Below, one piece after another: positions 2,152-24,023 of a stretch of 25,159 nucleotides of DNA. The stretch covers positions 1 through 25,159 of IMG/VR virus record IMGVR_UViG_3300042691_024302; one strand, 5' to 3'. Position 1 is the stretch's first letter; each line of letters begins with the position of its first letter. The notes beneath the pieces were generated by a model, which was given only the letters and a program-made list of their open reading frames with translations, was not told the origin of the DNA and did no database searches. This stretch comes from a virus. The translations under genes were made by a program, and so were the position numbers.

Positions 2152-3729
2152 ATGTGTGTTGTATGTGTTTCTACAGTTGCTATAGTATCTTTGCTGTCTC
2201 CCAATACAACACCAGTTGTAAAAAATAATATAAATGATTATGTGATTACTAAAACTGCATGTCCAAAATCAAAAGTAAATAAAATTGAAAATAGTCGTAT
2301 TTGTTTAAAAAATGGTAAAGTTTATAGATGGGCAATTAAAAAACCTACTAAGACAACTCCAACACCTACTCCAACACCTACTCCAACTCCAACATCAAAC
2401 AATAATACAGTTTTAACTAAAAATGATGAGTTTAAAAATAATTTTAAATTTTTTGATTCTCTATGTGAAATTGATAATGATATAGATGAATCATTTTTAA
2501 AATATAAAAACAATGTAAAAAATAATGACTGTCACCCTCCGTATAAATTTGTTTCTCAATTTATTGAGTCACAGCCAACAACAATATTATCTAATGATAA
2601 TTTATTTTTACCCACATCATCATGTAATATTGATTCAGACAAGTGGACTACAAGAAAAAATAAATGGCATCCAAATTATACAATAAGAATGATTCCATAT
2701 CAAACTACAGATTTCCCAACATCATCTAATCCAAAAGCCGACTGGTCTTTTGAAATTAAATATCTTCTAGATACTTTTGATAATATTACAGATGTTCCAT
2801 CTAATTATAAGATATTAGTAGATGAAACTTATTATAAAGTTGATGTAAATTTAAAGGATTATGATCTGAGTGGTAAATATATGCATGGAGATCGTGGTGC
2901 ACAGACTAGAGCAAAACAACTTGCTAATAAAATTATATCTATTGCTGATAGCAGCATTGATTTTGGTTCAGTTGATATGATTTATTTTTTACCTCCAAAA
3001 AATGTTCCTAATTCGGTTTTAGGAAATTTTATTTTACCTGGTTTAATTCAAACTCAAGAAAAAATATTTTATGATGGTATTTATATGGGTTCAAAATGGG
3101 ATGATTTTTCTTCAGAGTATTGGAATTCAAGAAATCCGTTTGGATTAATACATGAAATTATTACGCATGTATCAAATACACTAAGTGATTATACTGGAGA
3201 TCAGTTTCATGATAATAAATTAGGGCACTACGGTGTAGGTAACTGGGGAAATAATGCTGGCGGAATTATGGATTTTTTAGGTTTTGATAAATGGCAAGCA
3301 AAATTAATCGCTGACTCACAAGTTTATTGTATTAATTCAAATAAAGAAAATATTATTTGGTTAAGACCACTAACACACAATACTTTTGATAAAAAGTTAG
3401 CAATTATAAAGTTATCAGAAACAAATGCAATAACTATTCAGTCCATGAGATCAAGTGGGTATAACTATAAATTACCAAAAAAGTCAAATGGTGTTTTGGT
3501 TTCAACTGTTGATACAGATGCAGCATATGATAATTCTGTACATGACGACGGACAAGTTGTTTTATGCCCAAAACGCAATAACAGTTATAATATTCATGGC
3601 GGATGTAAGGAAAAAAATCTTTTTGACGCAACATTACAAGTAAATGAAAGTATTATTTATCAAGGATATGAAATTATTGTTCTTGAATCTGGTGAATTTG
3701 GAGATGTTGTTAAAATTAAAAAAATTTGA
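2152..3729 (+). CDS. Secreted M6-like (immune-inhibitor-A-type) metallopeptidase-like protein with Pro-Thr linker
   Basis: A 525-residue protein. Residues 2-16 are hydrophobic (a short signal peptide or anchor). Residues 35-62 (ACPKS...CLKNGKVYRW) resemble a short Cys/Trp segment common in secreted proteins of aquatic Actinobacteria. A Thr-Pro linker (68-81) follows, then a large domain. Around residue 334 is HEIITH, then SDYTGD, then GIMDFLGFDKWQAKL. The order (zinc-site helix, Asp-rich loop, MG-like turn, W/K helix) and a later SNGVLVSTVDTD stretch match the M6 layout. M6 enzymes normally have HExxH, while this has HExxxH, so activity is uncertain. It could digest host surface proteins, act as an adhesin or be a virion-associated peptidase. 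AGGAT at 2136-2140 is the ribosome site. The coding region is much more AT-rich than the lysis genes. Confidence 0.6.
   Translation: MCVVCVSTVAIVSLLSPNTTPVVKNNINDYVITKTACPKSKVNKIENSRICLKNGKVYRWAIKKPTKTTPTPTPTPTPTPTSNNNTVLTKNDEFKNNFKFFDSLCEIDNDIDESFLKYKNNVKNNDCHPPYKFVSQFIESQPTTILSNDNLFLPTSSCNIDSDKWTTRKNKWHPNYTIRMIPYQTTDFPTSSNPKADWSFEIKYLLDTFDNITDVPSNYKILVDETYYKVDVNLKDYDLSGKYMHGDRGAQTRAKQLANKIISIADSSIDFGSVDMIYFLPPKNVPNSVLGNFILPGLIQTQEKIFYDGIYMGSKWDDFSSEYWNSRNPFGLIHEIITHVSNTLSDYTGDQFHDNKLGHYGVGNWGNNAGGIMDFLGFDKWQAKLIADSQVYCINSNKENIIWLRPLTHNTFDKKLAIIKLSETNAITIQSMRSSGYNYKLPKKSNGVLVSTVDTDAAYDNSVHDDGQVVLCPKRNNSYNIHGGCKEKNLFDATLQVNESIIYQGYEIIVLESGEFGDVVKIKKI
2353..2394 (+). repeat. Thr-Pro dipeptide repeat (linker) in the M6-like protein
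   Basis: Alternating ACA/ACT and CCA/CCT codons encode a (Thr-Pro)n run at residues 68-81. Such runs form stiff, often glycosylated linkers between an anchor and an extracellular domain. The 12-nt unit CCAACACCTACT recurs imperfectly, so slipped-strand length change is possible. Confidence 0.8.
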
Positions 3730-5143: not shown

Positions 5144-6748
5144 GTGTCAGTAGATAAAATAGTAGTTGTAGGTGGAGGATCTGCTGGATGGATGACAGCA
5201 TCTACATTGATAAAAGCCTTTCCTAATAAAAAGATATATGTAATAGAATCTAAAAATGTACCTTTAGTTGGTGTTGGAGAATCAACTTTAGGAGAAATAA
5301 GAAGATGGACAAGGTTTATTGGCTTAAATGAAAAGGATTTTTTTAAACAAACGGACGCATCATATAAATTAAGTATTAAGTTTACTGATTTTTATAAAAA
5401 AGATTCTGGTAGTTTTCATTATCCTTTTGGACAACCAGCAGTAGATAAAAACAGAAATCCATTTCATGATTGGCATATTAAAAAATATATATACCCAGAT
5501 ACTCCAGTTACAGATTTTGTTGAATGTTTATTTCCAGCATCTGCTTTATTTACTCAAAATAAATATTCTCCTAATATTTTAAATAATTTTGATAATTTTG
5601 ATCATACTAATGATGTAGCATATCATTTTGATGCAGTTAAATTTGGAAAATGGTTAAAAGATTTTGTATGTCTTCCTAATGGGGTAAAACATATAGAGTC
5701 AACTGTAATAGATATTCATATCGAAGAGGATTTGGGTATTAAATTTCTTAAATTAGAAAACGGAGAAACTATTACTGCTGATTTATTTATCGATTGCACT
5801 GGCTTTAAAAGTCTTTTACTAGGACAAACTTTAAAAGAACCATTTACTTCATTTGAAAATTTACTTCCAAACAACGGTGCCTGGGCAACAAGAATACCAT
5901 ACAAAAATAAAGAAAAAGAATTAGAGGGATATACAAACTGTACAGCAATAGGAAATGGTTGGTGCTGGAATATACCATTATATTCAAGAATAGGTGCTGG
6001 GTATGTTCATTCAACAAAGTATATTACTAAAGAACAGGCACTTGATGAGTTTAAAGAATATTTAATGTCTAATAAAATGGTTGTTCCTAGAACCAAAGAT
6101 GAGGTTGAAAGTTTGGAATATAGATATATAGATATGCGTGTTGGACTTCACGAAAGAACTTTTGTAAAAAATGTAGTAGCAATAGGACTATCTGCAGGAT
6201 TTATAGAGCCTTTAGAATCTAATGGATTATTTACGGTTCATAAATTTTTATTTAAACTTATAGATATTTTACAAAGAAATGACATAAGCCAATTTGATCG
6301 TGACATGTATAACTCTTCAGCAAAGACTTTATTTGAATCTTTTACTAAATTTGTATCTCTACATTATCTTTTATCTCATAGGGATGATACAGAATACTGG
6401 AAAAATATAAAAAATGGAAATCAAATTAATATTCAAGATGAAGTGTATGATAGATATTATTATAAGTCTGGAGCATTTTATGATTTAGTTCAAAGATATA
6501 TGGATCATGGCAAACATCCATTAGACAGGGCTGGAATAACATACATAGCAACTGGAATGAATTTAAATATGATGAACAACTCAAGGGCAGAAAATGAATA
6601 TTTTACAACAAAAATACCATTAAAACAAATAGCAGATTTCTGTAATGCTGATTGGGAATTAAAAAAACAAAAATGGAAAAATAATGCACAAAATGCTCCA
6701 TCTCTTTATGAATATTTAAAAAATACTTATTTTGACGGACAAGAATAA
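5144..6748 (+). CDS. Flavin-dependent (tryptophan-type) halogenase
   Basis: A 534-residue protein, typical for the family. It has the FAD-binding GGGSAGW (10-16) near the N-terminus, GVGEST (43-48), the catalytic-lysine region DASYKLSIKF (Lys75, equivalent to PrnA Lys79), the signature GWCWNIP (272-278; family GWxWxIP), and EPLESNG (Glu358, equivalent to PrnA Glu346). These enzymes use FADH2, O2 and halide to chlorinate, brominate or iodinate electron-rich substrates; free Trp is only one possibility. Homologs in phages are known (VirX1 of a cyanophage). No flavin reductase is in the window, so reduced flavin would come from the host. A GTG start is chosen because AAGGAGA lies 3 nt before it. 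It sits between two tRNA groups, upstream of the DUF6065-like and oxygenase genes. Confidence 0.9.
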   Translation: MSVDKIVVVGGGSAGWMTASTLIKAFPNKKIYVIESKNVPLVGVGESTLGEIRRWTRFIGLNEKDFFKQTDASYKLSIKFTDFYKKDSGSFHYPFGQPAVDKNRNPFHDWHIKKYIYPDTPVTDFVECLFPASALFTQNKYSPNILNNFDNFDHTNDVAYHFDAVKFGKWLKDFVCLPNGVKHIESTVIDIHIEEDLGIKFLKLENGETITADLFIDCTGFKSLLLGQTLKEPFTSFENLLPNNGAWATRIPYKNKEKELEGYTNCTAIGNGWCWNIPLYSRIGAGYVHSTKYITKEQALDEFKEYLMSNKMVVPRTKDEVESLEYRYIDMRVGLHERTFVKNVVAIGLSAGFIEPLESNGLFTVHKFLFKLIDILQRNDISQFDRDMYNSSAKTLFESFTKFVSLHYLLSHRDDTEYWKNIKNGNQINIQDEVYDRYYYKSGAFYDLVQRYMDHGKHPLDRAGITYIATGMNLNMMNNSRAENEYFTTKIPLKQIADFCNADWELKKQKWKNNAQNAPSLYEYLKNTYFDGQE

Positions 6749-7035: not shown

Positions 7036-7704
7036 ATGGAAAAACCAGATATATTACAAAGCAATGATTTTAATTTTAATGTTTGGTATGAGACATACGA
7101 TCCATTATTTTCAGATATTTCAAAAAAATCAAGACTTCCAGAAAAATGGATATCTTATCAATATATAAAAAATAATTATTACAAACAAAGTTTTATAAAA
7201 CCAATTAATAGATATGTTGAAGCACTTTATCCAAAACCAAATCTTATATCTATTAATGATAATACTGTTACATTAAGACAACATAATCATGCAGATTTTT
7301 TTCTTTTAGTAGAAAATAACGGAATATTATATAACTTAGATAGGCCATGGATGAGACAATATTATAATACAAAATATTCTACTGAAATACCAAATGATTG
7401 CTTTAATTATATTTATAAATTTTATACTCCGTGGTATGTCGATTTTGAAGGAAATGTTGAATACAAAAATATCGAAAATTCTCCATTTCATATTTATGAT
7501 ATATCTATAAAGCATAACTCAGTATCTCAGCAACTTAATTATCTAGAACCAAACTTTATTCCTTTTAGTTTTAAAAAAATAGGAGACCACATGGTAGATG
7601 ATGGTTTCGGAAAAATTTTAAGAGGTTCTCCAATGTTTGACATTATATTTAAAGCAGATGATATAATGATTAGTAGAGTCAAGGAGTTTTATGAAAAAAA
7701 TTAA
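7036..7704 (+). CDS. Protein of unknown function, distant relative of the two following DUF6065-like proteins
   Basis: A 222-residue soluble protein, rich in Asn, Tyr, Phe and Ile. I recognise no catalytic motif. Its second half seems to keep landmarks of the next two proteins: FYTPWYVDFEGNVEY corresponds to PYWSVGTPKGYSA, IPFSFKKIGDHMVDDGF to LPFWSFGGFVDTDGF, and LRGSPMFDIIF to KQGTPFIQIIP, in the same order and spacing. It is therefore probably a third, more diverged family member. It overlaps the next gene by 14 nt and starts 12 nt after the Thr tRNA with an AGGA ribosome site. Function is unknown; the company of the halogenase and tailoring enzymes suggests a part in the same process. Confidence 0.65.
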   Translation: MEKPDILQSNDFNFNVWYETYDPLFSDISKKSRLPEKWISYQYIKNNYYKQSFIKPINRYVEALYPKPNLISINDNTVTLRQHNHADFFLLVENNGILYNLDRPWMRQYYNTKYSTEIPNDCFNYIYKFYTPWYVDFEGNVEYKNIENSPFHIYDISIKHNSVSQQLNYLEPNFIPFSFKKIGDHMVDDGFGKILRGSPMFDIIFKADDIMISRVKEFYEKN

Positions 7705-8413
7705 ATTTTATCCATTTAGTGAGTCAATAGTAGATCTTGTTCCAAAACCATCTCCTGCTTCCAGGCATGTGCCAGATTGGTATAAACATCAACCAGGATC
7801 TGTCAATGAAGAACAAGCCTTTTCAAATGGAGCAGGTGGAGCAACAATTAAAAAATGTATGCCAGTATTTGACATGATGACTGCAGGATATATTTTGGGA
7901 TTTCCCTGCGATATTTTTATAGATGCTACCGATCCTAATAAATTAAAATGGTCTACTCCTCAGCCCATGAGGCAGGTAATACCAGATGTAGTATCGCATC
8001 ACTCATTTGAACAATACTCACACTATCCAATTGATACAACACAATACCATAAAGAACTTTTTAGAATATTGCCTTATTGGTCAGTTGGAACTCCTAAAGG
8101 CTATAGCGCTATGTTTATCCATCCAATTCATAGAGATGAACTGCCATTCTGGTCTTTTGGAGGTTTTGTAGATACAGACGGTTTTATATCAGATGGACAT
8201 TTTTCTATGCTTATTAGAAAAAACTTTAAGGGTGTTATAAAACAAGGAACTCCATTTATTCAAATAATTCCAATACAAAGAGAATCTTGGGAAACTGAAT
8301 TAGTTGATCCAAAAGAAGCATCTAAAATATTACAAAAACAAAGAGTAAATGTAAGGGCAAATTTTGTTAATGCATATAAAAATAAATTTAGGAGTAAAAA
8401 AGAATTTAAATGA
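7691..8413 (+). CDS. DUF6065-like protein (copy 1)
   Basis: A 240-residue protein closely related to the next gene. Shared landmarks in order are VPDWY (MLPEWF in the neighbour), TIKKCMPVFDMMTAGY (TKMCMPFLDATTAGY), PYWSVGTPKGYS (WYYETPKGYS), HPIHRDELPFW (HPMNRYDLPFY), FVDTDGF, KNFKGVIKQGTPFIQIIP (RNFRGIIPKGTPIFQIVP) and QRESWE. I take this to be the DUF6065 family by memory of the pattern. It has no signal peptide or membrane segment. Conserved His, Asp, Cys and TPKGY positions would suit a metal- or substrate-binding role, but no reaction is known. A strong AAGGAG precedes the ATG, which overlaps the previous gene by 14 nt. Confidence 0.7.
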   Translation: MKKIKFYPFSESIVDLVPKPSPASRHVPDWYKHQPGSVNEEQAFSNGAGGATIKKCMPVFDMMTAGYILGFPCDIFIDATDPNKLKWSTPQPMRQVIPDVVSHHSFEQYSHYPIDTTQYHKELFRILPYWSVGTPKGYSAMFIHPIHRDELPFWSFGGFVDTDGFISDGHFSMLIRKNFKGVIKQGTPFIQIIPIQRESWETELVDPKEASKILQKQRVNVRANFVNAYKNKFRSKKEFK

Positions 8414-9171
8414 AAGACGATTTACTAAAAATAAAATTTATTCCTGGCTTTATTCCATATAAAAATCATTTAACACCTCCAGAACCAGCAATAAAGATGT
8501 TGCCAGAATGGTTTAGAACTTTGGCACGTCATGATAAATCTAATGACGACAGAACTTTACATCCAGTAAATCACATAGGCGCAGATGGGGCAATGGTTGC
8601 TACAAAAATGTGTATGCCATTTTTAGATGCTACTACAGCAGGATATCATTATTTATTAGAAGACGATTTATATGTAGATTTAGATGAAAATGGAAAACCA
8701 ATACTGTCTTGGAAAGGAGACGTTTTATTAGTTGATGTTAGGCCAACAATAGAATTGCCAGTGCCAGATAATTGTCACCCAATACATTATGGATGGAGAA
8801 TGAATTGGTATTATGAAACTCCTAAAGGATATTCTTGCTTAATTACACACCCAATGAATAGATATGATCTTCCATTTTATGTTCAGTCTGGAATTGTAGA
8901 ATCAGATATTTGGGGATTGCCAGTATTTACTGCATTTTTTTTAAAAAGAAATTTTCGTGGAATTATTCCTAAAGGAACACCAATATTTCAAATAGTACCC
9001 TTTAAAAGAGATAATTGGGAATTAGAAGTTATAGATACTCCAGAAGAGTTGGACAAGCATGAATTGATGGCAGAAAATAGACGATCAAGACTGTATGGTT
9101 ATTATAAACAAACTGCATGGAGAAGAAAAATATTTGGAGTATTCGGAAAGACTGAAAAATATGAAGAATGA
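8410..9171 (+). CDS. DUF6065-like protein (copy 2)
   Basis: A 253-residue paralog of the gene before it, joined by an ATGA overlap. It keeps all landmarks: MLPEWF, KMCMPFLDATTAGY, ETPKGYSCLITHPMNRYDLPFY, RNFRGIIPKGTPIFQIVPFKRDNWE. The N-terminal third differs (an HPVNHIGADGAMVATK insert), so the two may be subunits with different partners rather than redundant copies. The tandem arrangement points to duplication, or to a heteromeric complex. Its 3' end overlaps the following glycosyltransferase by 11 nt, which implies coupled translation. Confidence 0.7.
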   Translation: MKDDLLKIKFIPGFIPYKNHLTPPEPAIKMLPEWFRTLARHDKSNDDRTLHPVNHIGADGAMVATKMCMPFLDATTAGYHYLLEDDLYVDLDENGKPILSWKGDVLLVDVRPTIELPVPDNCHPIHYGWRMNWYYETPKGYSCLITHPMNRYDLPFYVQSGIVESDIWGLPVFTAFFLKRNFRGIIPKGTPIFQIVPFKRDNWELEVIDTPEELDKHELMAENRRSRLYGYYKQTAWRRKIFGVFGKTEKYEE

Positions 9172-10003
9172 TATTGATATTATTATATATTCATATAAAG
9201 GTAAATATGTAAAAGATATTTTACAAAAACTAGATGAATATTCTATGTCTGTAACACTAATAGATCAGCATCCATTAGATAGGAAAAAGATGTTTGATCA
9301 AATGATAAAAAAATATTTACATGTTTTTTGGGATCATCAAAAAAGTCCGTGCAAATATAAAAATAATCAAATTAAAATATCTAACGCTAAATATATAATG
9401 TTATTATCTGATAATGTATTTTTAGAAAAAAATATTATTGATACGTTAATTAATTTTATAGAAACAAATAATTGCATAGTTTCTGGTTTTGGGAAAAATA
9501 AAATAGAAAAAAAAGATTTATTCTCAATAAACCAAAAAAGAGAAAATTCTTTAGATTATACCTTAACAAACTTTATTAATCGTGATTTTATAATTGGGAA
9601 AAATGAACATTTTAAACAGATAGAGTATCCAGAGTTTTTAAAGTATAATGGAGAGGAAGAGTTATTATCTTTACTTTTTTACAATAATAAAATTGATATA
9701 TATTCCGCACCTAATAGTTTTGGCGTTAAGGTTGGTAAAAGAAGCATAGAGGAGATATACTGTCCATTTTCTATTGATCATAAATATAATAAAGTAATAA
9801 AAATATTTAAAGGGGAAATTTATAAAAATTATAACATTTCTAAAGAAATACTTGAAGATTTTAATCGATTCCACAACTTTAATTTTTCAGACCTAAAAGA
9901 ACTTCCATATATTAATGATGATGTTCTTTATGATCAAAATCAACTTGAATTTTTATCCGTAGATGGTAGAAAATTTGTTGAAAAAACAAGGGCCATCCAT
10001 TAA
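9161..10003 (+). CDS. GT-A-type glycosyltransferase-like protein
   Basis: A 280-residue protein. The N-terminus (DIDIIIYSYKGKYVKDILQKL) is a nucleotide-fold beta-alpha unit. It is followed by YLHVFWDHQKSPCKYKNNQIKISNAKYIMLLSDNVFLEKNIIDTLI in one continuous region (about 52-97), which matches the GT-A layout in which an acidic motif at the end of a strand (here SDN, 83-85) binds the metal and nucleotide-sugar. It resembles PF11397/GT60-like enzymes and may be a relative of the clearer transferase at 13571. Only one acidic residue remains in the DxD position, so activity is less certain. Start 9161 is chosen over an upstream in-frame ATG because it gives the usual short overlap with the previous gene and begins at the conserved fold. 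Confidence 0.55.
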   Translation: MKNDIDIIIYSYKGKYVKDILQKLDEYSMSVTLIDQHPLDRKKMFDQMIKKYLHVFWDHQKSPCKYKNNQIKISNAKYIMLLSDNVFLEKNIIDTLINFIETNNCIVSGFGKNKIEKKDLFSINQKRENSLDYTLTNFINRDFIIGKNEHFKQIEYPEFLKYNGEEELLSLLFYNNKIDIYSAPNSFGVKVGKRSIEEIYCPFSIDHKYNKVIKIFKGEIYKNYNISKEILEDFNRFHNFNFSDLKELPYINDDVLYDQNQLEFLSVDGRKFVEKTRAIH

Positions 10004-10012
10004 TGGTATAAT
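10004..10012 (+). promoter_or_regulatory. Extended -10 promoter (TGG-TATAAT)
   Basis: TGG (10004-10006) and TATAAT (10007-10012) overlap and follow the stop of the glycosyltransferase. A Shine-Dalgarno (AGGAG, about 10018-10022) and the ATG of the first 2OG oxygenase (10029) follow. It divides the island into two transcription units. Confidence 0.65.
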
Positions 10013-10028
10013 GTAATAGGAGAATAAT

Positions 10029-10631
10029 ATGCATAGAATAACTGTAATTGAAAATTTTATAACACCAGAAGATGCCAAAACATTAATAGATCAGCAACTG
10101 GATCCGTCCGCCGTCAGGCTTCCTTATCCAAATTACTATAGTGATAGATATGGTGGAACCTCTTTGCCGTATAATCCCACGGTAATGTCAATTTTAAAAA
10201 AATATGGACATAAATCAAATGAAATGCATAAAGCATTAAATGGTTTTAAAAATCCAATGTATGTTTTTAAGGCTTTTGGATCTCACTGGTTGCCTGGTAC
10301 TAAAGGTGACTTGCATATAGATGCACAGGGTCCAGAACCATGGATTGAGTTTAGTACAATAATGTATTTAAATAATGAATCAGAATACGATGGCGGAGTA
10401 ATATATTTCCCAAACCAAGATTTTCAGTATAAGCCTAAACAATATTCTGCAGTGTTTTTTCCTGGTGCTGGAACAGAATATATTCATGGAATAACAACTG
10501 TTACACGTGGCAATAGATTTACTGCTTTATATATGCATACTAGTTTGCCAGAACATGCAGATCCAGATTTTTATGATGGAGTAAAGCCTACAAGGTGGGA
10601 GGCACAGCACTATGACCTTAGACAACATTGA
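10029..10631 (+). CDS. Prolyl-4-hydroxylase-like 2OG-Fe(II) oxygenase (1 of 5)
   Basis: A 200-residue single-domain protein with the double-stranded beta-helix signature. Iron ligands are His96 and Asp98 (GDLHIDAQG) and His153 (YIHGITTV), with Arg163 (NRFTALYMH) for the 2-oxoglutarate carboxylate. STIMYLNNESEYDGGVIYFP is the typical P4H-like strand pair. All four key residues are present, so it should hydroxylate (or otherwise oxidise) a substrate using O2 and 2OG. P4H-like enzymes often act on proline in proteins, but relatives act on other residues and small molecules. It overlaps the next oxygenase by 20 nt, so the pair are probably made together. Confidence 0.85.
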   Translation: MHRITVIENFITPEDAKTLIDQQLDPSAVRLPYPNYYSDRYGGTSLPYNPTVMSILKKYGHKSNEMHKALNGFKNPMYVFKAFGSHWLPGTKGDLHIDAQGPEPWIEFSTIMYLNNESEYDGGVIYFPNQDFQYKPKQYSAVFFPGAGTEYIHGITTVTRGNRFTALYMHTSLPEHADPDFYDGVKPTRWEAQHYDLRQH

Positions 10632-11289
10632 ATATGATATATTAGATTTGGGTTTAGTATATTATAAAAATATATTAAAAGATTCAGAATCTATTATAGA
10701 AAAAGTTAATCAGATTGATTCAAGGTATATGTCTGGAGAACATGGCAATAATTTTACAGAAATGAAACCATGGCATGCATGGCAAAATGAAAGTGCTGGA
10801 ACATATGAAACTTTTTGTTGGCAAAAATTTTTTCCAAAACCACAAGACATAAAATATAATGATTATTATTATTTGGATCAATTAGATATATCAAAAAAAC
10901 TATACGATGCTCTTGACTTGGCAACTGATCATTATAAAAAAATAATTTATCCATTTGCAGATAAAAATATAAAATCTAGAGAATATAATATACATTTATT
11001 AAAATATACTCCTGGAGGATATCTGCCAGCACACCAAGATCAGGGTGTTAGTAGCAGAGTGTTGTCAAGTGTAATGTATTTAAATAATAATTATGTCGGA
11101 GGAGAGATAGAATTTAGACAATCTAAAATTAAAATAAAACCAGAACCTGGCAGTATAATATTTTTCCCATCAAACTTTTTATATGTTCATGAAGTTTATC
11201 CAATTATAAGTGGAGAAAGATATTCAATGCCACACTGGTACCATAATATACCATTTGGCGAGGCAAGAAATTCTACTGGTGCTGAATAA
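10612..11289 (+). CDS. Prolyl-4-hydroxylase-like 2OG-Fe(II) oxygenase (2 of 5)
   Basis: A 225-residue protein with complete active-site residues: His141 and Asp143 (PAHQDQGV), His193 (YVHEVYPI), Arg203 (ERYSMPHWYH), and VMYLNNNYVGGEIEF between. It is only distantly similar to the oxygenase it overlaps, so the pair probably act on different positions or substrates. About 100 residues at the N-terminus precede the core and may set substrate choice. Its stop overlaps the next ATG by one base. The run oxygenase, oxygenase, SGNH hydrolase, carbamoyltransferase, glycosyltransferase is uninterrupted. Confidence 0.85.
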   Translation: MTLDNIEYDILDLGLVYYKNILKDSESIIEKVNQIDSRYMSGEHGNNFTEMKPWHAWQNESAGTYETFCWQKFFPKPQDIKYNDYYYLDQLDISKKLYDALDLATDHYKKIIYPFADKNIKSREYNIHLLKYTPGGYLPAHQDQGVSSRVLSSVMYLNNNYVGGEIEFRQSKIKIKPEPGSIIFFPSNFLYVHEVYPIISGERYSMPHWYHNIPFGEARNSTGAE

Positions 11290-12044
11290 TGATATCTATT
11301 ACGTCAATTGATAAAAAAGAATTAGACGGTTATTGGCATATTACAAGAACTTTTAATAATAACTATAATGATGAATTACAAAATTTACAAATTAAACAAA
11401 AAAATTATAATAAAAATGGAAAAAGTATTTTATTTTCTGGATGTTCCGTAACAGAAGGTTCTAGTGTTAAAGAAAATAATTTATGGGTTAACTTACTTTC
11501 TAGTGAAATAAATAAAAAAATTCCAATAATGAATTCTATAAATATTGCAAAACATGGTAATAGTATATTTGACTCAATTGTAAGTATTTTTTCTTATATA
11601 AAAAATAATAATAAGCCAGACTTTATATTTTTAAATTTACCAAATATTGAAAGAAACTATTTATATTTAGAGGAAAATAAATATGCAACTATTTCGTTTT
11701 CTACAAAAAATAAAAATTCTTTAGACTTATATGCAAAATCATCAATGATACATATACTAAATTATTATTATATGCTAGAAGAATATTGTAGAAAAAGTAA
11801 TATACAATTATTTTCATTTACATGGGATCATGGAATATGGGATCTTAGTACTGCATCTCAATTTAAAGGTTTTAATTTTAATACCTTTCATACTTACAAA
11901 TGGGAAGAACTAACAAATTATATTTATGAATATAAAAGTAGTAAAAATGATCAGTATTATTTAATAGCGGAAGATGGTTATCATCAAGGCAATGCCTACC
12001 ATCATTTTTGGTCTGATTGGATACTAAAGGAAATCTTTAAATGA
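11289..12044 (+). CDS. SGNH/GDSL-type hydrolase (esterase or acyltransferase-like)
   Basis: A 251-residue protein. The block I motif is ILFSGCSVTEGSSV at about 47-60, with Ser nucleophile in GCSVTEG. Block II fits INIAKHGNS with its Gly, and block III is FLNLPN with its Asn. The C-terminal catalytic pair is EDGYHQGNAYH (DxxH), close to the end as expected. SGNH enzymes remove or move acyl groups on sugars, lipids or antibiotics, here probably on the product of neighbouring tailoring genes. No signal peptide is present, so it acts in the cytoplasm. It is translationally coupled to both neighbours. Confidence 0.7.
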   Translation: MISITSIDKKELDGYWHITRTFNNNYNDELQNLQIKQKNYNKNGKSILFSGCSVTEGSSVKENNLWVNLLSSEINKKIPIMNSINIAKHGNSIFDSIVSIFSYIKNNNKPDFIFLNLPNIERNYLYLEENKYATISFSTKNKNSLDLYAKSSMIHILNYYYMLEEYCRKSNIQLFSFTWDHGIWDLSTASQFKGFNFNTFHTYKWEELTNYIYEYKSSKNDQYYLIAEDGYHQGNAYHHFWSDWILKEIFK

Positions 12045-12118
12045 TTAAGAAAATTAAATTTATTATATGGAAATATAAAAATAGAAAAAAATTTAAATTT
12101 AAGGATTTTATATATTAG
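12041..12118 (+). CDS. 25-residue Lys-rich peptide gene
   Basis: A short frame begins with an ATGA overlap on the SGNH gene stop and ends at TAG 12116-12118, 7 nt before the carbamoyltransferase ATG. It encodes a very basic peptide starting MIKKIKFIIWKYK and ending DFIY. The coupled start, the fact that it fills the gap exactly, and my recollection of small basic proteins ending in FIY in other phages support a real gene. It might also be only a leader that couples translation. No function is known. Confidence 0.4.
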   Translation: MIKKIKFIIWKYKNRKKFKFKDFIY

Positions 12119-12125
12119 GAGTTAT

Positions 12126-13571
12126 ATGAAAATTTTAGGAATTAATGAAACTACACATGATGCTTCTATAACACTCATAGAAGATGGAAATATATTATTT
12201 GCTGCTCACGCAGAAAGATTCAGCAAGCAAAAAAATGATTGGTTTACAAATGACGATATTATTAATGAGGCATTGTCTTACGGAAAACCAGATCAACTAG
12301 CCTACTATGAAAATAGATGGCTAAAAAAACTACGCATAATTACTCGTGGTGGTTTTGGCGGAGACAAACCTTATTATCTTGCTAGACCAGATTTAAAATG
12401 GATTCCAAGAGAATCGTTTAGCCATCATCATTCACATGCAGCAGCAGGCTACTATACATCTAAATTTGACAATGCGGTAATTGTAGTATTAGACGCAATT
12501 GGAGAATTTAACACATCCACAGTATGGGTGGGAGAAGGCAGTAATTTAAAGAAAGTATTCACAAAAAATTATCCATTTAGTTTCGGATTATTTTATTCCG
12601 CATTTACTCAATTAGTTGGATTAAAACCAAATGAGGAGGAGTATATTTTTATGGGTATGGCAGCATATGGAGATTGGACTAGATATTATCTAAAAATAAA
12701 GGAATATTTTCCTGATATTCATACTCAAAAATATAATTTTCATAAAGGTATTTTTGACTGGGATGAAGTAATAGATGATCAGGCTAAATTTGATATTGCT
12801 GCTGCTGTTCAAAAAATATATGAAGACCGATTAGTTAATTTTATGTCCATGTCACAAAAACTTACTGGAAAACGTAATCTTGTTTTTATGGGTGGATGTG
12901 CATTAAATTGTGCAGCAAATACAATGCTTTGGAAGATGTTTGATGATGTCTGGATTATGCCCAACCCAGGGGATGCTGGATCGTCGCTTGGAGCGGCTGC
13001 AGCAGCCTATGGAAGCCATATAAATTGGCAGCATCCGTATCTTGGTCATGACCTTGGCGGGGAATACCCAGTAGGACCTATAATTACAGAACTAATAAGA
13101 AATAAAATTGCTGCGGTAGCAACAGGAAGGGCTGAATACGGTCCAAGAGCATTAGGAAACAGAAGTATTCTTGCAGATCCAAGAGATCCAAATATTAAAG
13201 ATAAAGTTAATTTAATTAAAAAAAGAGAGTTGTTTAGACCTTTTGCTCCAGTAGTAATGGAAGAGCATGCAAGTAAATGGTTTGATATGAATTTTACATC
13301 GCCATATATGCAGTATGCAGTCAAATGTTTACAACCAGATAAAATTCCATCTGTTGTACATAAAGATGGTACATCAAGAGTTCAAACTGTAAATAAAAAA
13401 CAGCATCCTGGGCTATATGATGTATTATCAAATTGGTACGCCATGACAGGGGTTCCAGTATTATTAAATACAAGTTTAAATATAAAAGGACAACCACTGT
13501 TAAACGATGAAAATGATATACTTGACTGGGAAAAAGAATATTCTTCTTTAATTATAAGGGGTAAAAATTAA
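12126..13571 (+). CDS. NodU/TobZ-type O-carbamoyltransferase
   Basis: A 481-residue protein with both domains of the family. The N-terminal ASKHA-like domain starts KILGINETTHDASITLIEDG (His11-Asp12) and has the metal/adenylate site SHHHSHAAAGYY (His100-102, His104). Then FMGMAAYGD, FMGGCALNCAANTML and PNPGDAGSSLGAA follow. The C-terminal domain has EYGPRALGNRSILADPR (338-353) and GVPVLLNTSLN. Family enzymes make carbamoyl-adenylate from carbamoyl phosphate and ATP, then transfer carbamoyl to a hydroxyl on a sugar or antibiotic. Slightly short at the C-terminus relative to NodU, but motifs are intact. Phage homologs have been linked to carbamoylated hydroxymethyl-cytosine, so DNA is an alternative target. 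AGGAG lies 6 nt before the ATG. Confidence 0.9.
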   Translation: MKILGINETTHDASITLIEDGNILFAAHAERFSKQKNDWFTNDDIINEALSYGKPDQLAYYENRWLKKLRIITRGGFGGDKPYYLARPDLKWIPRESFSHHHSHAAAGYYTSKFDNAVIVVLDAIGEFNTSTVWVGEGSNLKKVFTKNYPFSFGLFYSAFTQLVGLKPNEEEYIFMGMAAYGDWTRYYLKIKEYFPDIHTQKYNFHKGIFDWDEVIDDQAKFDIAAAVQKIYEDRLVNFMSMSQKLTGKRNLVFMGGCALNCAANTMLWKMFDDVWIMPNPGDAGSSLGAAAAAYGSHINWQHPYLGHDLGGEYPVGPIITELIRNKIAAVATGRAEYGPRALGNRSILADPRDPNIKDKVNLIKKRELFRPFAPVVMEEHASKWFDMNFTSPYMQYAVKCLQPDKIPSVVHKDGTSRVQTVNKKQHPGLYDVLSNWYAMTGVPVLLNTSLNIKGQPLLNDENDILDWEKEYSSLIIRGKN

Positions 13572-14566
13572 TGGATAAAATATTTGTTTCAATAGCAGCA
13601 TGGGAAGACTCTCATTTAATAGATGCAATGAGAAAATTTATAAATACTTCTGATCACCCAAACAGTATAGTTTTTGGACTAGGATTAAATTATGAAGTAG
13701 AACCAGATTTTTCTGAATTTAAAAATAATAACATTAAAATAGTTAGAGATAAAGAAATAGGCGACGGGTTCCCAGGAATTATAGGAATAAGAGAAGCAAT
13801 AAGAAAATTAATAACAGATGAAAAATATTTTATGGGAGTAGACGCACATGTTGATTTAGAAAAAGGATGGGACACAAAATTAAAAAATGATATTGATGAA
13901 TTAACTCAGAATAATGAAAAAATTATAATTTCTAGACAGGCAACTGCAGCCATTTTTGGTAAAAAAAATTACGCAACAGCCTGGAGTTTAAGAGGAGATA
14001 TTATAGAATTTGGTCTTGATGGATATGTTATTGAAGTAGATGAAACATATTTAAAAGAAAAAATGGTTAATAATAAATATTTTAAAAATTATTATGTATC
14101 TTGTAATTTTATTTTTGCTAAAACAAAAGATATAAAAAATATTAATTTCCCTTCTTATCATAAATTTCCATTCGAGGAGCCAGAGCAAAGTCTTGCAATT
14201 TATTGTCATGGCTATGATGTTGTAAGCCCTATAGCAGAAGAAATTTGTCATTATGCTGGAAATGATATTAAATATATGTTTGATCCTGATAAAGGATACA
14301 ACCCAAAGTTTTGGAAACTTTCTGGAAATGATCCAACAATAAAAAATAATTGGAAAAAGATATGGGTTGAAGATGATGACGAAATGAGATTAGAAGTAAA
14401 AAAATTAATGATATTTGGAGAAAATCAATATTATTGCCTTGATAATAAGCGTACAATCAGAGATTTTTATAAACAAATAGGGCAACTTGACAATTATGAA
14501 AAAATCCTGTATGATGGTTTATCAAAACAATACATGTATGCAAAGGGAGATCACAATGGAATCTAA
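13571..14566 (+). CDS. PF11397/GT60-like glycosyltransferase (polypeptide GlcNAc-transferase type)
   Basis: A 331-residue protein with the GT60 layout: IFVSIAAWEDSHLIDAM at the start, VFGLGLNYE, then GFPGIIGIREAI (the position of the family GPxxAR motif) and FMGVDAHVDLEKGWD (DxH at 91-93, the metal/nucleotide-sugar site). Later, FPFEEPEQSLAIYCHGYDVVSP matches the conserved acceptor-side acidic segment. The best known family member adds GlcNAc to hydroxyproline of the eukaryotic protein Skp1, after a prolyl 4-hydroxylase has acted; bacterial and viral members are mostly unstudied. The gene overlaps the carbamoyltransferase by one base and the next DUF2061 by 11, closing the island. Confidence 0.75.
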   Translation: MDKIFVSIAAWEDSHLIDAMRKFINTSDHPNSIVFGLGLNYEVEPDFSEFKNNNIKIVRDKEIGDGFPGIIGIREAIRKLITDEKYFMGVDAHVDLEKGWDTKLKNDIDELTQNNEKIIISRQATAAIFGKKNYATAWSLRGDIIEFGLDGYVIEVDETYLKEKMVNNKYFKNYYVSCNFIFAKTKDIKNINFPSYHKFPFEEPEQSLAIYCHGYDVVSPIAEEICHYAGNDIKYMFDPDKGYNPKFWKLSGNDPTIKNNWKKIWVEDDDEMRLEVKKLMIFGENQYYCLDNKRTIRDFYKQIGQLDNYEKILYDGLSKQYMYAKGDHNGI

Positions 14567-14774
14567 AAAGAAAAGCCTTTTAAAAACACTGAGTTGGGAA
14601 ACCTTTCACCTCATTGGTGTTGCTGGAGTTATTGCTGTTATAACGTATATAATGACTGGCGAGGTTGAATATGAATACGCTACTCTAGGTGCGCTAGTTT
14701 ACATCATGTGGGAGGCTTTGGGATATTTCCTTCATGAAAGAGTTTGGGCCAGATTTGGCAAGGGGGTAAAGTAA
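14556..14774 (+). CDS. DUF2061 small membrane protein (copy 2)
   Basis: A 72-residue protein: basic MESKKKSLLKTLSWETFHLIGVAGVIAVITYIMTG, then ATLGALVYIMWEALGYFLHERVWARFG, with the family FLHERxW ending. It is a diverged copy of 4740-4952. Start 14556 is chosen because GGGAGA lies just upstream and the protein then has the family length; a longer reading of this frame would run back into the glycosyltransferase gene. Its stop overlaps the next ATG by one base. It precedes the zinc-ribbon genes and the decayed kinase copy. Confidence 0.75.
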   Translation: MESKKKSLLKTLSWETFHLIGVAGVIAVITYIMTGEVEYEYATLGALVYIMWEALGYFLHERVWARFGKGVK

Positions 14775-16007: not shown

Positions 16008-16421
16008 ATGTATGAATACAGAATAAAAAAAATTACTGGAGTAGTAGATGGAGACACCATAGATGTAGATATAGATTTAGGGTTTAATGTTTCGTTCTCT
16101 CAAAGAGTAAGGCTTGCTGGAATTGATACCCCTGAATCTAGAACTTCAGATAAATTTGAAAAAGCACTTGGTCTTGAAGCAAAAGAATATCTTAAATCAA
16201 AACTTAAAGATGCAAAACAAATTATTATTAAAACAGAAAAACCAGATTCATCTGAAAAATATGGACGTATATTGGGATGGCTTTATGTAGATAATAATAC
16301 TGTATCTATTAATGATCAGATGATCGAAGATGGATATGCCTGGGGATATCTTGGAGAAACAAAGATTAAAGACTTTTCCGTACTTGCCAAACAAAGAGAA
16401 ATGTCAAAAAATAAAAAATGA
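16008..16421 (+). CDS. Staphylococcal-nuclease-like (SNase/thermonuclease) protein
   Basis: A 137-residue OB-fold nuclease. VVDGDTIDVDIDLGF carries the calcium-binding Asp16 (equivalent to SNase Asp21), RVRLAGIDTPE carries Arg35, Asp40 and Glu43, and KYGRILGWLYV carries Arg87. All catalytic residues are present. It should cut DNA or RNA with calcium. No signal peptide is seen, so it acts in the infected cell, perhaps in host DNA breakdown or nucleotide recycling. It overlaps the next oxygenase by 4 nt (ATGA). Confidence 0.85.
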   Translation: MYEYRIKKITGVVDGDTIDVDIDLGFNVSFSQRVRLAGIDTPESRTSDKFEKALGLEAKEYLKSKLKDAKQIIIKTEKPDSSEKYGRILGWLYVDNNTVSINDQMIEDGYAWGYLGETKIKDFSVLAKQREMSKNKK

Positions 16422-17095
16422 AAACAATAAATGATTCTTTTAAACCAAATTATAGATTAGTAAAAAACTTTTTATCTGAAGATGATTGTTTATCTATAAT
16501 TAATGATGCAAATAAATCTGGAGAAGACTTATGGCTTATTGATTTTGACTTGCATTATCCAAAACAAGAGGAAGTAACTGCAGATTATTGGACAGCGATA
16601 AAAGATTGGCAAGGAATGTCTTTAAATTTAGATATGCCAAACTGGGAATTGACATATTCTCTTGATAAAAATAAATATACTAACATATTATCGTTAGCCC
16701 AAGAGCAAATTGAAGATCGTTTTAAAGTAAAAGTTTTTAAAGAACAATTTTTGATAAGTAGATGGCGTGAAGGAAGAGATCAGAAGCCTCACATTGATTA
16801 TTTAAAAGATGAAGAGGATAACAATATAAAAGATTTATATAGTGTTGGTATGAATGATGATTTTATTGATCAGTTTAAAGAAAGATTTAAAACAAAACAT
16901 TACTCAACAATCATTTATTTAAATGATAACTTCGATGGTGGTGAGTTATATTTTCCGCAATACAATAATTTAACACTTAAGCCAGAAACTGGTATGATGA
17001 TTTGTTTTAAGGGAGATACCCACCACTTGCACGGAGTAAAAGAAATTATAAGAAACATAAGGTACACAATATCTATTTTTTGGACGGAGATATAA
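16418..17095 (+). CDS. Prolyl-4-hydroxylase-like 2OG-Fe(II) oxygenase (3 of 5)
   Basis: A 225-residue protein: KPHIDYL (His125, Asp127), THHLHGVKEI (His205), NIRYTISIFW (Arg215), with STIIYLNDNFDGGELYFP between. A longer insert (about 130-160) separates the HxD from the strand pair compared with the other copies. Active-site residues are complete. It lies outside the halogenase island, next to the nuclease, so it may have a different substrate. It is translationally coupled to the nuclease gene. Confidence 0.85.
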   Translation: MKTINDSFKPNYRLVKNFLSEDDCLSIINDANKSGEDLWLIDFDLHYPKQEEVTADYWTAIKDWQGMSLNLDMPNWELTYSLDKNKYTNILSLAQEQIEDRFKVKVFKEQFLISRWREGRDQKPHIDYLKDEEDNNIKDLYSVGMNDDFIDQFKERFKTKHYSTIIYLNDNFDGGELYFPQYNNLTLKPETGMMICFKGDTHHLHGVKEIIRNIRYTISIFWTEI

Positions 17096-18195: not shown

Positions 18196-18429
18196 ATGAA
18201 TATTACAACACTAGAACAAATGGAGTCTATAGTATCATCTAATAAAAATCTTTTTTGGGATGGATGGGATGTAGTTAATTACACTAGATCAGAAAAGGCA
18301 CGAACGTCAAAATATGGTAAATTTATTAACGGTAACTGGTATTTAACAAAAGTTTTTAAGTTAGAGAAAAGTGGTTGGAATATACCAGACAGGATAATAG
18401 GAAATGCACAAACAAAAATGGAAGGATAG
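18196..18429 (+). CDS. Small protein of unknown function
   Basis: A 77-residue soluble protein rich in Trp, Asn and Lys, with DGWDVVNYTRSEKARTSKYG and a GNWYLTKVFKLEKSGW segment. It follows a strong Shine-Dalgarno (AAAGGAG) and overlaps the WhiB gene by 26 nt. The overlap suggests it is made together with WhiB. No family is recognised. Confidence 0.6.
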   Translation: MNITTLEQMESIVSSNKNLFWDGWDVVNYTRSEKARTSKYGKFINGNWYLTKVFKLEKSGWNIPDRIIGNAQTKMEG

Positions 18430-18697
18430 TGCCTCATGTTTAGATTATGATACAAATTTATTTTTTGATAAATATGAAGAGGACGAGAGTTTAAGATCGG
18501 CAATCGATACTCTTTGTCTCTCTTGTCCAGTAATAAAGACTTGCTTTTCTGTTGGAGTTTCTAGTAAAGAATGGGGCGTTTGGGGTGGAGTATATTTAGA
18601 AAGTGGTAATATTTCTAAAGAATTTAATTTACATAAAAGTAAAAGTAATTGGAATAATGCATGGATAAAGTTAACTAATGAGGAACAAACAGAATAA
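18404..18697 (+). CDS. whiB: WhiB-family Fe-S transcription regulator
   Basis: A 97-residue protein with the full WhiB signature: Trp6-Lys-Asp-Ser-Ala-Ser-Cys12, DTNLFF, then Cys38-LS-Cys41-PVIKT-Cys47 (CxxCx5C), and the turn GVWGG (58-62). The four cysteines hold a [4Fe-4S] cluster, and WhiB proteins act through the major sigma factor of Actinobacteria. Phage copies such as WhiB of mycobacteriophage TM4 reduce host WhiB action. The basic DNA-contacting end after GVWGG (KSKSNWNNAWIK) is weaker than in host proteins, so it could act by competing for sigma rather than by binding DNA. Its presence is the strongest pointer to an actinobacterial host. Confidence 0.9.
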   Translation: MHKQKWKDSASCLDYDTNLFFDKYEEDESLRSAIDTLCLSCPVIKTCFSVGVSSKEWGVWGGVYLESGNISKEFNLHKSKSNWNNAWIKLTNEEQTE

Positions 18698-19743
18698 TGT
18701 ATATTACACATCCTAGACTTTCTGAAGGATTTTTTTATTCTAATCCAGTTTTAATTCAATTAAATAAAAACAATGCACCATTTATATTAACTGGGGGACA
18801 TTCTAATCCATATTCAATAAAAGAATTAAATCAGGATGAAGACTTAAATTTAAAAAATTTCTCAGACTCTAATATAATTAAACTAATCGATAACAGAAAA
18901 AAGGTCATGCTAAGTATTAATATGATATACGGTCATGGCCTTCCTGAAGGACTTGGAACTATTTTAAAATTTTTAGAAAAAGATCCTACAACATTTTTTA
19001 TTTTAGATTGTCCATGGATACATGTTCCAGAAAATTTTTATTTTAGTAATAATAAAAATAGAATAATTGATGAAGCAAATACCCCATTTAATAAATTCTT
19101 ATTTGAATTTTTAGATAGTAAAAATGTTAATTATGTAATTTTTGGAAAAGATGATTTTTCTAATAAAGAACCAAGCATTATAGCCAACAATATAAGTGTA
19201 TTTCAACAAATGATGCCATTTTATAGGAATATACGCTTAATAGGAAGTGCTGTTGACTATTTAAGAAAACCAGAAACTAAGCCATACAAGAGGGTCTACT
19301 TAAGTAGAAGAAGTTGGACTGGTAATAGAAATCCAAAACTTTTATATGGTGATAATGACCCAGCACAATATCTTACTTTAGGAGATTTTAGAATAGATGA
19401 TGAAAAAAGAGTAGAAGAATATTTAATAAAAAAGGGCTTTGAAATATGCTATCCAGAAGACTTTAAAGATTTTAGAGATCAGATAAGATATTTTGATTTA
19501 ACAAAAACATTGTGTACCACAACTGGTTCAGGAATGTTTAATCAAATTTTTATGAGACCTGGCGGTAGCATTATCGAATTATCAAATCCAATGATAAATA
19601 ATGGCATAGAAATGATACATGGACATAGTCAGGCAATAGCATGGGCAATGAATCATTTTCATGTGTCTATTAGTCATAAAAAAAGTGCAGATGAAATAAT
19701 AGACAAACTTGAAAAATATGAACATATTTTCAACATGGTATAA
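18697..19743 (+). CDS. GT61/DUF563-type glycosyltransferase
   Basis: A 348-residue protein. The C-terminal half matches the family: KRVYLSRRSW, then KRVEEYLIKKGFEICYPEDFKDFRDQIRYF in one region, and TTTGSGMFNQIFMRPGGSIIEL. Members transfer sugars to surface polysaccharides or glycoproteins. The N-terminal half is less conserved and may bind the acceptor. A GAGGAA Shine-Dalgarno stands 11 nt upstream; the ATG overlaps the WhiB stop by one base. It opens a second sugar-related group (18697-21627). Confidence 0.75.
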   Translation: MYITHPRLSEGFFYSNPVLIQLNKNNAPFILTGGHSNPYSIKELNQDEDLNLKNFSDSNIIKLIDNRKKVMLSINMIYGHGLPEGLGTILKFLEKDPTTFFILDCPWIHVPENFYFSNNKNRIIDEANTPFNKFLFEFLDSKNVNYVIFGKDDFSNKEPSIIANNISVFQQMMPFYRNIRLIGSAVDYLRKPETKPYKRVYLSRRSWTGNRNPKLLYGDNDPAQYLTLGDFRIDDEKRVEEYLIKKGFEICYPEDFKDFRDQIRYFDLTKTLCTTTGSGMFNQIFMRPGGSIIELSNPMINNGIEMIHGHSQAIAWAMNHFHVSISHKKSADEIIDKLEKYEHIFNMV

Positions 19744-19744
19744 T
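19736..19744 (+). promoter_or_regulatory. Extended -10 promoter (TGG-TATAAT)
   Basis: TGG (19736-19738) and TATAAT (19739-19744) overlap the end of the GT61 gene. An AAAGGA ribosome site and the ATG of the nucleotidyltransferase-HAD gene at 19764 follow, so the message would start at about 19751 with a 13-nt leader. Confidence 0.65.
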
Positions 19745-19763
19745 ATAACAAACAAAGGACTTT

Positions 19764-20864
19764 ATGAATATTTTAATTCCAATGGCTGGTCTTGGGTCTA
19801 GATTTTCTAACGCTGGAATATTAATACCAAAACCACTTATAAGAGTAAATGGTAAAACTTTAATAGAACATTCTATAGAATCTTTAGGAATAGAGGGTCG
19901 ATATATTTTTATTACAAGAAAATACGATACTATAGAACACAATAAAGAATTAAGTTTAATTTTAAAAAATATATCTCCTGATTGCGTAGAGATACAAATT
20001 GATTCTGTAACAAGTGGTGCTAGTGAAACTGCGTTATATGCAAAAGACTTAATTAATAATGATGAAGAGTTAATAATATCTAATTGTGATCAATTATTAT
20101 ACTGGGATCAAAATAATTTTATACAAAATGCAAAAAATATTGATGCTGACGGGTCAGTGTTATTATTTAAATCCAGGGATGCTAAAAATAGTTTTGCCGA
20201 AATTGATGAAGATTATATAGTAAATATTGTAGAAAAAAAGGCTATTAGCGATAATGCTTTGGTGGGAGTTCATTATTGGAAACACGGAAAAGATTTTGTT
20301 GAGTCTGCCTCAAAATTGTTAGATCAGTTTAGATCAAATGGATTGCCAGAATGCTATATTTCTGAAACTTATAATTTTTTAATTGAAAAAAATAAAAAAA
20401 TATCTCCATATTTTATTTCTAAAAATAGTTATATACCACTTGGAACTCCAGAGGATATATCTATTTTTATCGGCAAAATAAAAGAATTTTATACAGATAA
20501 ACCTAAAACTATATTCTGTGATATAGATGGCACAATTTTGAGACATTCTCATAAATTTAGTGATATTACTTTACATGATCCTGAACTTTTAGAAGGCGTA
20601 TTGTCAAAATTTAATGAATGGGATTCTAAAGGGTATAAAATAATTCTTACAACAGCAAGAAAAGAATCCGCAAGAACTATGACACAGATGCATCTCGCTT
20701 CTTTAGGTATATGTTGGGATTATTTAATAATGGGAATAACAAGTGGCCAAAGAGTTCTTATTAACGATAAACTAAGGAATGAAGATAAAGATCGTGCATT
20801 AGCAGTAAACTTAATAACAGATTCTGGATTTGATAAAGTTGAATGGGAAGATATGGGATTATGA
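19764..20864 (+). CDS. Fusion of sugar-nucleotidyltransferase and HAD phosphatase
   Basis: A 366-residue protein. Residues 1-240 are a nucleotidyltransferase: MAGLGSRF (7-14) and IPKPLIRVNGKTLIEH give the nucleotide loop and the PKP lysine (Lys23); SNCDQLLYW supplies the metal-site Asp. Residues 245-366 are a HAD phosphatase: FCDIDGTILR (Asp253 nucleophile, Asp255), ILTTARK (motif II Thr) and LINDK (motif IV-like Asp). Such fusions make activated sugars for surface polysaccharides, with the HAD part removing a phosphate from the sugar-phosphate precursor. It probably feeds the glycosyltransferases nearby. The stop overlaps the cupin start (ATGA). Confidence 0.8.
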   Translation: MNILIPMAGLGSRFSNAGILIPKPLIRVNGKTLIEHSIESLGIEGRYIFITRKYDTIEHNKELSLILKNISPDCVEIQIDSVTSGASETALYAKDLINNDEELIISNCDQLLYWDQNNFIQNAKNIDADGSVLLFKSRDAKNSFAEIDEDYIVNIVEKKAISDNALVGVHYWKHGKDFVESASKLLDQFRSNGLPECYISETYNFLIEKNKKISPYFISKNSYIPLGTPEDISIFIGKIKEFYTDKPKTIFCDIDGTILRHSHKFSDITLHDPELLEGVLSKFNEWDSKGYKIILTTARKESARTMTQMHLASLGICWDYLIMGITSGQRVLINDKLRNEDKDRALAVNLITDSGFDKVEWEDMGL

Positions 20865-21871: not shown

Positions 21872-22371
21872 TGCAAACATTTCTACCACAGTCAGATTAT
21901 TACTTGTCTGCCCGTACATTAGATAATAAAAGACTAAACAAACAAATCTTAGAAGGCTATCAAATATTAAATGTTTTGTCTGGTAAATCTAAGACTGGTG
22001 GCTGGCGTAATCACCCTGCAGTATTAATGTGGAAAGGCTATGAGCATGGCCTATGGCGTTATATTCAAGCAATGATTCATGAGGCTAAATATCGTGGTAT
22101 TAAGACACAAAATAATGAAGCAAATCTTAATAAACTTAAAGATTTATGCTGGGAAGACTGGGGATACGACATTCCAGAATATTTTAAAGACGAAAAAAAG
22201 TTAGTAAGAATTGTAACTACTCATCGTGCTAATCTATTTAAAAAAGATCCTATATATTATGCTCCATTCCAATATGCCATAACTAGTTTAAACAATGTTC
22301 CCTGCTGTCCTGATCGCAAAGAGCCATGTAAATATTACTGGCCAACACATGAAGGAAAAATTTATGTATAA
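21871..22371 (+). CDS. Pyr_excise/MSMEG_6728-family protein (pyrimidine-dimer-glycosylase-like fold)
   Basis: A 166-residue protein starting MQTFLPQSDYYLSARTLDNKRLNKQILEGYQIL, followed by GWRNHPAVLMWKGYEHGLWRYIQAMI. This is the pattern of PF03013, which includes T4 endonuclease V (DenV) and actinobacterial MSMEG_6728. DenV cuts at pyrimidine dimers using its N-terminal Thr; here Gln2-Thr3 follow Met, so the same N-terminal chemistry is not assured. The CCPDRKEPCKYYWP end adds three cysteines. A DNA-repair role is likely but not proven. It overlaps the following oxygenase by 8 nt. Confidence 0.75.
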   Translation: MQTFLPQSDYYLSARTLDNKRLNKQILEGYQILNVLSGKSKTGGWRNHPAVLMWKGYEHGLWRYIQAMIHEAKYRGIKTQNNEANLNKLKDLCWEDWGYDIPEYFKDEKKLVRIVTTHRANLFKKDPIYYAPFQYAITSLNNVPCCPDRKEPCKYYWPTHEGKIYV

Positions 22372-23996: not shown

Positions 23997-24023
23997 GGGG
24001 GCCTTTCGGCCCCCTTATTTTTT
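23997..24023 (+). terminator. Strong rho-independent terminator between convergent genes
   Basis: GGGGGCC (23997-24003), loop TTTC, GGCCCCC (24008-24014), then TTATTTTTT. The seven-pair G/C stem followed by a T run is a classic terminator. It ends the long + strand transcript. On the - strand the same stem has no good T run after it, so it mostly acts rightward, but it may also slow transcripts of the convergent oxygenase. Confidence 0.9.

Follow-up and report, generated by a model that had tools for sequence, protein, structure and literature searches.

A conserved phage gene cassette with prolyl-hydroxylase-like oxygenases, a GT60 glycosyltransferase and a carbamoyltransferase, and its possible role in protein modification

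In the eukaryotic Skp1 pathway of Dictyostelium, Toxoplasma and Pythium, a prolyl 4-hydroxylase (P4H), PhyA, is followed by a GT60 polypeptide glycosyltransferase, Gnt1. A like pairing of a P4H-type oxygenase with a GT60 transferase is encoded in the viral DNA described here, record IMGVR_UViG_3300042691_024302 of IMG/VR, a fragment whose 25,159 bases were analysed over their whole length and are called the window. The run of genes at 7036-14566 belongs to a conserved cassette, and with evenly balanced confidence it is read as a phage system for protein modification by hydroxylation, glycosylation and carbamoylation. Compared with the Skp1 pathway, the cassette has two divergent oxygenases, a GT60 paralogue that has lost its motif, a carbamoyltransferase and proteins of dUTPase-like predicted fold.

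Other described systems resemble parts of the locus. The OGNT of Trypanosoma cruzi is also a GT60 enzyme, and its acceptors, rich in Thr and Pro, have a counterpart in the Thr/Pro-repeat genes next to phage GT60 genes, but it is a Golgi enzyme that initiates mucin-type O-linked N-acetylglucosamine (GlcNAc) and works with no hydroxylase. The P4H of PBCV-1 and the collagen lysyl hydroxylase/glucosyltransferases of mimivirus are examples of virus-encoded 2-oxoglutarate (2OG) hydroxylases and GT-A transferases that act on viral repeat proteins. However, these are eukaryotic viruses without a carbamoyltransferase cassette, and mimivirus uses hydroxylysine and non-GT60 enzymes. Marine and freshwater T4-like phages have many 2OG-Fe(II) oxygenases. 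Where these have been explained, it was as modulators of 2-oxoglutarate/nitrogen signalling (PMC3037559), and they have also been termed cryptic (PMC9301287). The gene neighbourhoods described here point instead to the modification of repeat-rich proteins, for which concrete enzyme-acceptor pairs can be named.

In the proposed mechanism, the two oxygenases, O1 and O2, would act on a protein encoded by the phage and, with Fe(II), 2-oxoglutarate and oxygen, hydroxylate some of its residues, most likely prolines. The GT60 enzyme, a predicted GT-A polypeptide transferase, would then transfer a sugar, of GlcNAc type by family precedent, to the new hydroxyls or to nearby Thr or Ser. The paralogue G2 might, as a guess, assist without catalysis, either as a partner or by binding the acceptor, and the carbamoyltransferase, C, would carbamoylate the sugar or the hydroxylated residue. 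The hydroxyproline step is plausible; the peptide acceptor, the proline site, the identity of the sugar, the order of steps and the roles of G2 and C are what we infer. A more specific version, put forward tentatively, is that tailed phages possess a pathway for hydroxyproline O-glycosylation, in which two hydroxylases make hydroxyproline, GT60 adds a sugar and the carbamoyltransferase caps it to give a carbamoylated hydroxyproline-glycan, and that free-living bacteria follow the same P4H-GT60 logic with fused enzymes. If the hydroxyproline step is real, hydroxyproline glycosylation would reach from eukaryotes to phages and bacteria. This would bear on the origin of the Skp1 pathway, and the bacterial P4H-GT60 fusions described below would be ready test enzymes.

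The first-pass annotation of this DNA had placed two oxygenases with complete HxD...H...R sets at 10029-11289 and a PF11397/GT60-type transferase with DxH at residues 91-93 at 13571-14566, all in one run. A check of the open reading frames (ORFs) located all three there, and the motifs and the single run, with near back-to-back genes across 7036-14774 and gaps of -80 to +81 bp, were borne out as well. That annotation lacked the carbamoyltransferase and SGNH-type genes that lie between the oxygenases and the transferase, and also the degenerate GT60-like gene immediately upstream of the oxygenases. All cassette genes are on the plus strand. O1 (10029-10631, 200 amino acids) is recognised by phrog_61, a 2OG oxygenase family (E 8e-13), and by no Pfam family; O2 (10612-11289, 225 amino acids) scores 59.8 bits against PF13640 (cut-off 27). 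The catalytic set of O1, H96/D98/H153/R163, is invariant in 28 of 28 cassette copies, as is that of O2, H141/D143/H193/R203, in 24 of 24. A basic 2OG-binding Arg is typical of enzymes of the PHD2/PhyA type, whereas collagen P4Hs have Lys. The PDB entries closest to O1 in sequence are human prolyl 3-hydroxylase 1 (P3H1, 5.6e-5) and also PiuC; for O2 the best is a PKHD-type hydroxylase (1e-4), which ranks ahead of the P4Hs, then bacterial P4Hs (7e-4) and the PBCV-1 P4H (0.04). On these similarities, O1 and O2 are classed as prolyl-hydroxylase-like 2OG-Fe(II) oxygenases.

With 55.4 bits (E 9.4e-15), the GT60 gene product (13571-14566) exceeds the PF11397 cut-off of 21, and the Asp and His of its metal motif, D91-A-H93, are nearly invariant in 48 sequences. 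DxH is also the metal motif of family GT27, the polypeptide N-acetylgalactosamine (GalNAc) transferases. In a structure model with a predicted local distance difference test score (pLDDT) of 75 and a predicted template-modelling score (pTM) of 0.82, the best Foldseek match was GalNAc-T2 (E 1.2e-7), closely followed by the hydroxylysine glycosyltransferase domain of LH3, mimivirus R699 and the teichoic-acid transferase TarP. In a second structural comparison, the first 29 matches were all polypeptide GalNAc-transferases, with Z from 17.9 to 16.0, and B4GALNT1 came next at 15.9; the drop after this block is small, but the block itself is uniform. Neither a GT60 structure nor a Gnt1 model was among the structural matches, and the GT60 profile found a weak GALNT7 match alone among PDB sequences (E 0.007). 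The phage enzyme shares the GT-A fold (Z about 17.9) and DxH with GT27, but is only about 11% identical, is without the ricin-type lectin domain and belongs to PF11397 by sequence. As modelled, it is thus a PF11397/GT60 GT-A transferase with an intact DxH, closest to the polypeptide GalNAc-transferases.

G2 (9095-10003, with a true start perhaps later than 9095) is homologous to GT60 by hhalign (E 5e-9), and its copy in the relative L001 matches GT60 by blastp (E 1e-9). Because DxH is missing from all 28 cassette copies of G2 but retained in the GT60 copies, G2 is probably a non-catalytic pseudo-glycosyltransferase.

The order A-Y-Z-G2-O1-O2-(S)-C-(GT60), or a close variant of it, recurs in about 25 other phage regions, and L001 shares the gene content and order of the window except for S. 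With C as query, a scan listed another 80 phage loci, whose copies are 69-86% identical to it. Among these 80, an oxygenase was found in 60, S in 54, any GT60-like gene in 29, Y or Z in 25, G2 in 24, A in 22 and GT60 itself in 15. A tblastn search of isolated phages with O1, G2 and the fibronectin-type (Fn3) protein with FPP repeats described below gave no match. In the jumbo Xanthomonas phage XacN1 (L003, 5995-9712), a GT60-like gene is followed immediately by a carbamoyltransferase gene, with no annotated oxygenases nearby. Apparently secreted proteins are encoded near the cassette in three relatives (L535:222-1079, L572:2055-2855 and L546:12245-14206); one is a trypsin-family protease (PF00089) and some have Thr-Pro stretches.

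The pairing of hydroxylase and GT60 extends to cellular genomes. A PF13640-like domain lies within 6 kb of GT60, or in the same ORF, in 14 of 80 cellular GT60 loci. Eight of these are divergent, directly neighbouring P4H and GT60 genes in SAR86 and related marine gammaproteobacteria (L648, L652, L664, L665, L679, L684, L690 and L695); these represent few independent events, since their hydroxylases are 59-98% identical. One locus has tail-to-tail neighbours (L659) and three encode one-protein fusions: a 641-amino-acid protein with GT60 and PF13640 (L640:1072-2994), and two proteins in which multiple GT60 domains are joined to an AhpC-type domain and a pair of PF13640 domains (L649:2-3940 and L638:5047-12414). 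Elsewhere in about 1 Mb of flanks there are only two. These bacterial neighbours and fusions support the view that P4H and GT60 form a real coupled unit, a point about the enzyme classes in general rather than about what the phage copies do. A P4H/GnT fusion in Pythium is known through reference 121 of PMC8724618.

Gene neighbourhoods also bear on a somewhat unlikely alternative, that GT60 directly glycosylates Thr or Ser of repeat or linker domains in mucin-type fashion, as does T. cruzi OGNT, and that O1 and O2 act elsewhere and merely share a genomic island with it. Oxygenase-free GT60 genes adjoin (TP)n, (SP)n and collagen-like GTS/GTN repeats, the T. cruzi enzyme yields GlcNAc-alpha-Thr (PMC9472816), and the DxH and fold of the phage enzyme match those of Ser/Thr polypeptide transferases. 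Among 15 long GT60 contigs, six have a gene with Thr/Ser-Pro or collagen-like repeats at most 600 bp upstream of GT60 on the same strand. The mean expected from random placement is 0.65 and six was reached in 0 of 5000 placements, but this test is exploratory, because the repeat definition was chosen after examples had been seen. These neighbours suggest that Thr may be the acceptor in such phages, and they count equally in favour of the main reading, protein modification by the cassette. Against direct glycosylation of this kind, O1 adjoins the GT60 paralogue G2 in every cassette found, and several bacteria have P4H and GT60 as neighbours or in one protein.

C (12126-13571) has both domains of the NodU/TobZ O-carbamoyltransferases above cut-off (PF16861, 4.9e-53; PF02543, 3.6e-39), and its PDB relatives are the novobiocin carbamoyltransferase, GdmN and TobZ. 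Members of this family carbamoylate sugars and antibiotics, as would be expected if the cassette modified a surface polysaccharide, lipid-linked glycan or small molecule, with the GT60-like transferase, the SGNH-type protein and C building and capping a glycan and O1 and O2 hydroxylating a precursor. This unlikely reading would also account for the SGNH motif of S (11289-12044; GCS near the N-terminus and DGYH near the C-terminus), an optional cassette member, for the GT61 and nucleotidyltransferase-HAD genes at 18697-20864, and for the wall-teichoic-acid transferases TarP/TarS and RmlT among the structural matches of GT60. However, the best structural matches of GT60 are polypeptide transferases as a block, O1 and O2 resemble protein hydroxylases, and the GT60 members tested for activity act on protein acceptors (PMC8724618).

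The architecture of C is also that of a phage carbamoyltransferase that makes 5-carbamoyloxymethylcytosine (PMC8670742), which raises the very improbable alternative that the locus hypermodifies nucleic acids or nucleotides, an oxygenase generating a hydroxymethyl base that C carbamoylates and the glycosyltransferase glycosylates. A dUTPase-like fold predicted for Z would be in keeping with this. At the substrate-type residues that correspond to G421/R423 of TobZ, however, C has ALGNRS whereas the enzyme for 5-hydroxymethylcytosine (5hmC) has ALCNTT and different gene neighbours. A thymidylate-synthase homologue was found in 0 of 25 related contigs, which are fragments, and O1 and O2 are PF13640/P3H-like, with just a 0.05 match of O2 to Tet_JBP. 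Given the differing residues and the lack of thymidylate-synthase linkage in those contigs, carbamoylation of 5hmC by C was rejected as unlikely.

Y (7691-8413) matches phrog_7084 with E 1.9e-44, its homologue Z (8410-9171) is of the same family, and the conserved first gene of the cassette, A (7036-7704), is weakly similar to Z. The AlphaFold2 model of Z (pLDDT 86) has a dUTPase as its best Foldseek match (E 2.5e-4). The Y/Z family also has homologues in haloarchaeal tailed viruses, HF2 among them, where a few genes separate them from baseplate genes.

For the protein-modification reading, the best acceptor candidate within the window, and a fair one, is the protein at 2152-3729 (plus strand), which has a (TP)n linker and no Pfam match. 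The first-pass annotation, which called it M6-like, had proposed its Thr-Pro linker as acceptor. Full-length homologues overlap or abut gene A in three relatives (L506, L507 and L536), and shorter (TP)n proteins abut C in two others (L516 and L517). Cassette genomes G154 (at 69-797) and G170 encode collagen-like proteins, which are another candidate acceptor; G170 also encodes secreted proteins with Thr-Pro stretches, and a PEPT-rich protein is found in cassette genomes as well.

Phage oxygenases are linked to repeat proteins outside the cassette, too. In L018 and L060, oxygenase and GT60 genes adjoin genes for tail-type proteins with PPPVFTPPPVF or FPPFFPFFPP repeats at the end. When FPPFFPPF-encoding DNA was sought in an independent scan, at least 107 loci had the repeat in frame, and the reversed pattern, used as control, gave 67 loci; near-relatives are included in these scans and the p values are nominal. 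Among the loci listed, an oxygenase was present in 79 of 107 compared to 1 of 67 controls (p 5e-24), and a Y/Z gene in 58 of 107 compared to 1 of 67 (p 5e-15). The oxygenase nearest to the repeat gene is downstream of it in 75 of the 79. Within 50 contigs from the reversed-pattern scan, PF13640 was found in 11 of the 15 with FPP repeats and in 1 of the 35 without (p 4e-7). PF11397 was found in 8 of 65 FPP contigs and in 0 of 35 without the repeats, a borderline difference (p 0.048). A distance test by random placement was uninformative, as oxygenase arrays fill these loci; strand and downstream position are informative. In some aquatic phages (L094-L213), the gene for an Fn3-type protein with an FPPFFPP tail is followed directly by an array of as many as 11 oxygenase genes with phrog_7084 genes among them. 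In L140, L171, L175, L191-L194 and L200, the FPP-repeat proteins end in an intein/Hint-like domain, with a weak PF14890 match at L596:5446-7173 on the L175 contig.

Several of these results weigh against protein modification by the cassette, or against its hydroxyproline step. GT60 membership does not imply a hydroxyproline acceptor, because the T. cruzi GT60 glycosylates Thr (PMC9472816). No PF13640 gene is present in 38 of 50 phage GT60 contigs; the complementary per-contig count, 12 of 50, was not used as a measure of co-occurrence, since 15 of the 50 contigs in the reversed-pattern control have FPP tails and the contigs differ in length. GT60 immediately follows C in some cassettes only. 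The NodU/TobZ family is chiefly known for sugar and small-molecule acceptors, and the predicted fold of Z would fit no obvious role in protein glycosylation. In a tree with related phage oxygenases, O1 and O2 each form a clade of their own with full support, and about 1 Mb of sequence from 26 contigs with the cassette contained no FPP repeat or tail; FPP tails, which bear on the cassette only indirectly, were therefore rejected as its acceptor. The homologue of the 2152-3729 protein in L509 has no (TP)n linker; the proposal of that linker as acceptor is somewhat strengthened by the homologues that abut the cassette, and all of the acceptors are candidates only. The two-step hydroxylation and glycosylation first suggested for this phage likewise stands as regards the enzyme classes, the conserved cassette and the bacterial adjacency and fusions, but not as regards specificity of GT60 for hydroxyproline, regular company of GT60 with PF13640 or the oxygenases linked to polyproline, which are of other clades.

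The parallel drawn with Skp1 is similarly limited to its first two steps, in the manner of which the cassette possibly works. The cassette is not the Skp1 pathway, to which the carbamoyltransferase, the pseudo-glycosyltransferase and the two phrog_7084 proteins are foreign; Skp1 itself is a eukaryotic protein and is not part of the cassette. None of the glycosyltransferases that extend the Skp1 chain (GT2/GT74, GT77 or GT8) was found by Pfam among the 20 larger proteins of the window, itself a fragment, which gave GT61 and a nucleotidyltransferase besides GT60.

The window encodes three more oxygenases, at 16418-17095, 22295-22930 and, on the minus strand, 24022-24747. A gene for a WhiB-family regulator lies at 18404-18697, which suggests an actinobacterial host. 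Upstream of the cassette, at 5144-6748, a flavin-dependent (tryptophan) halogenase is encoded between tRNA genes.

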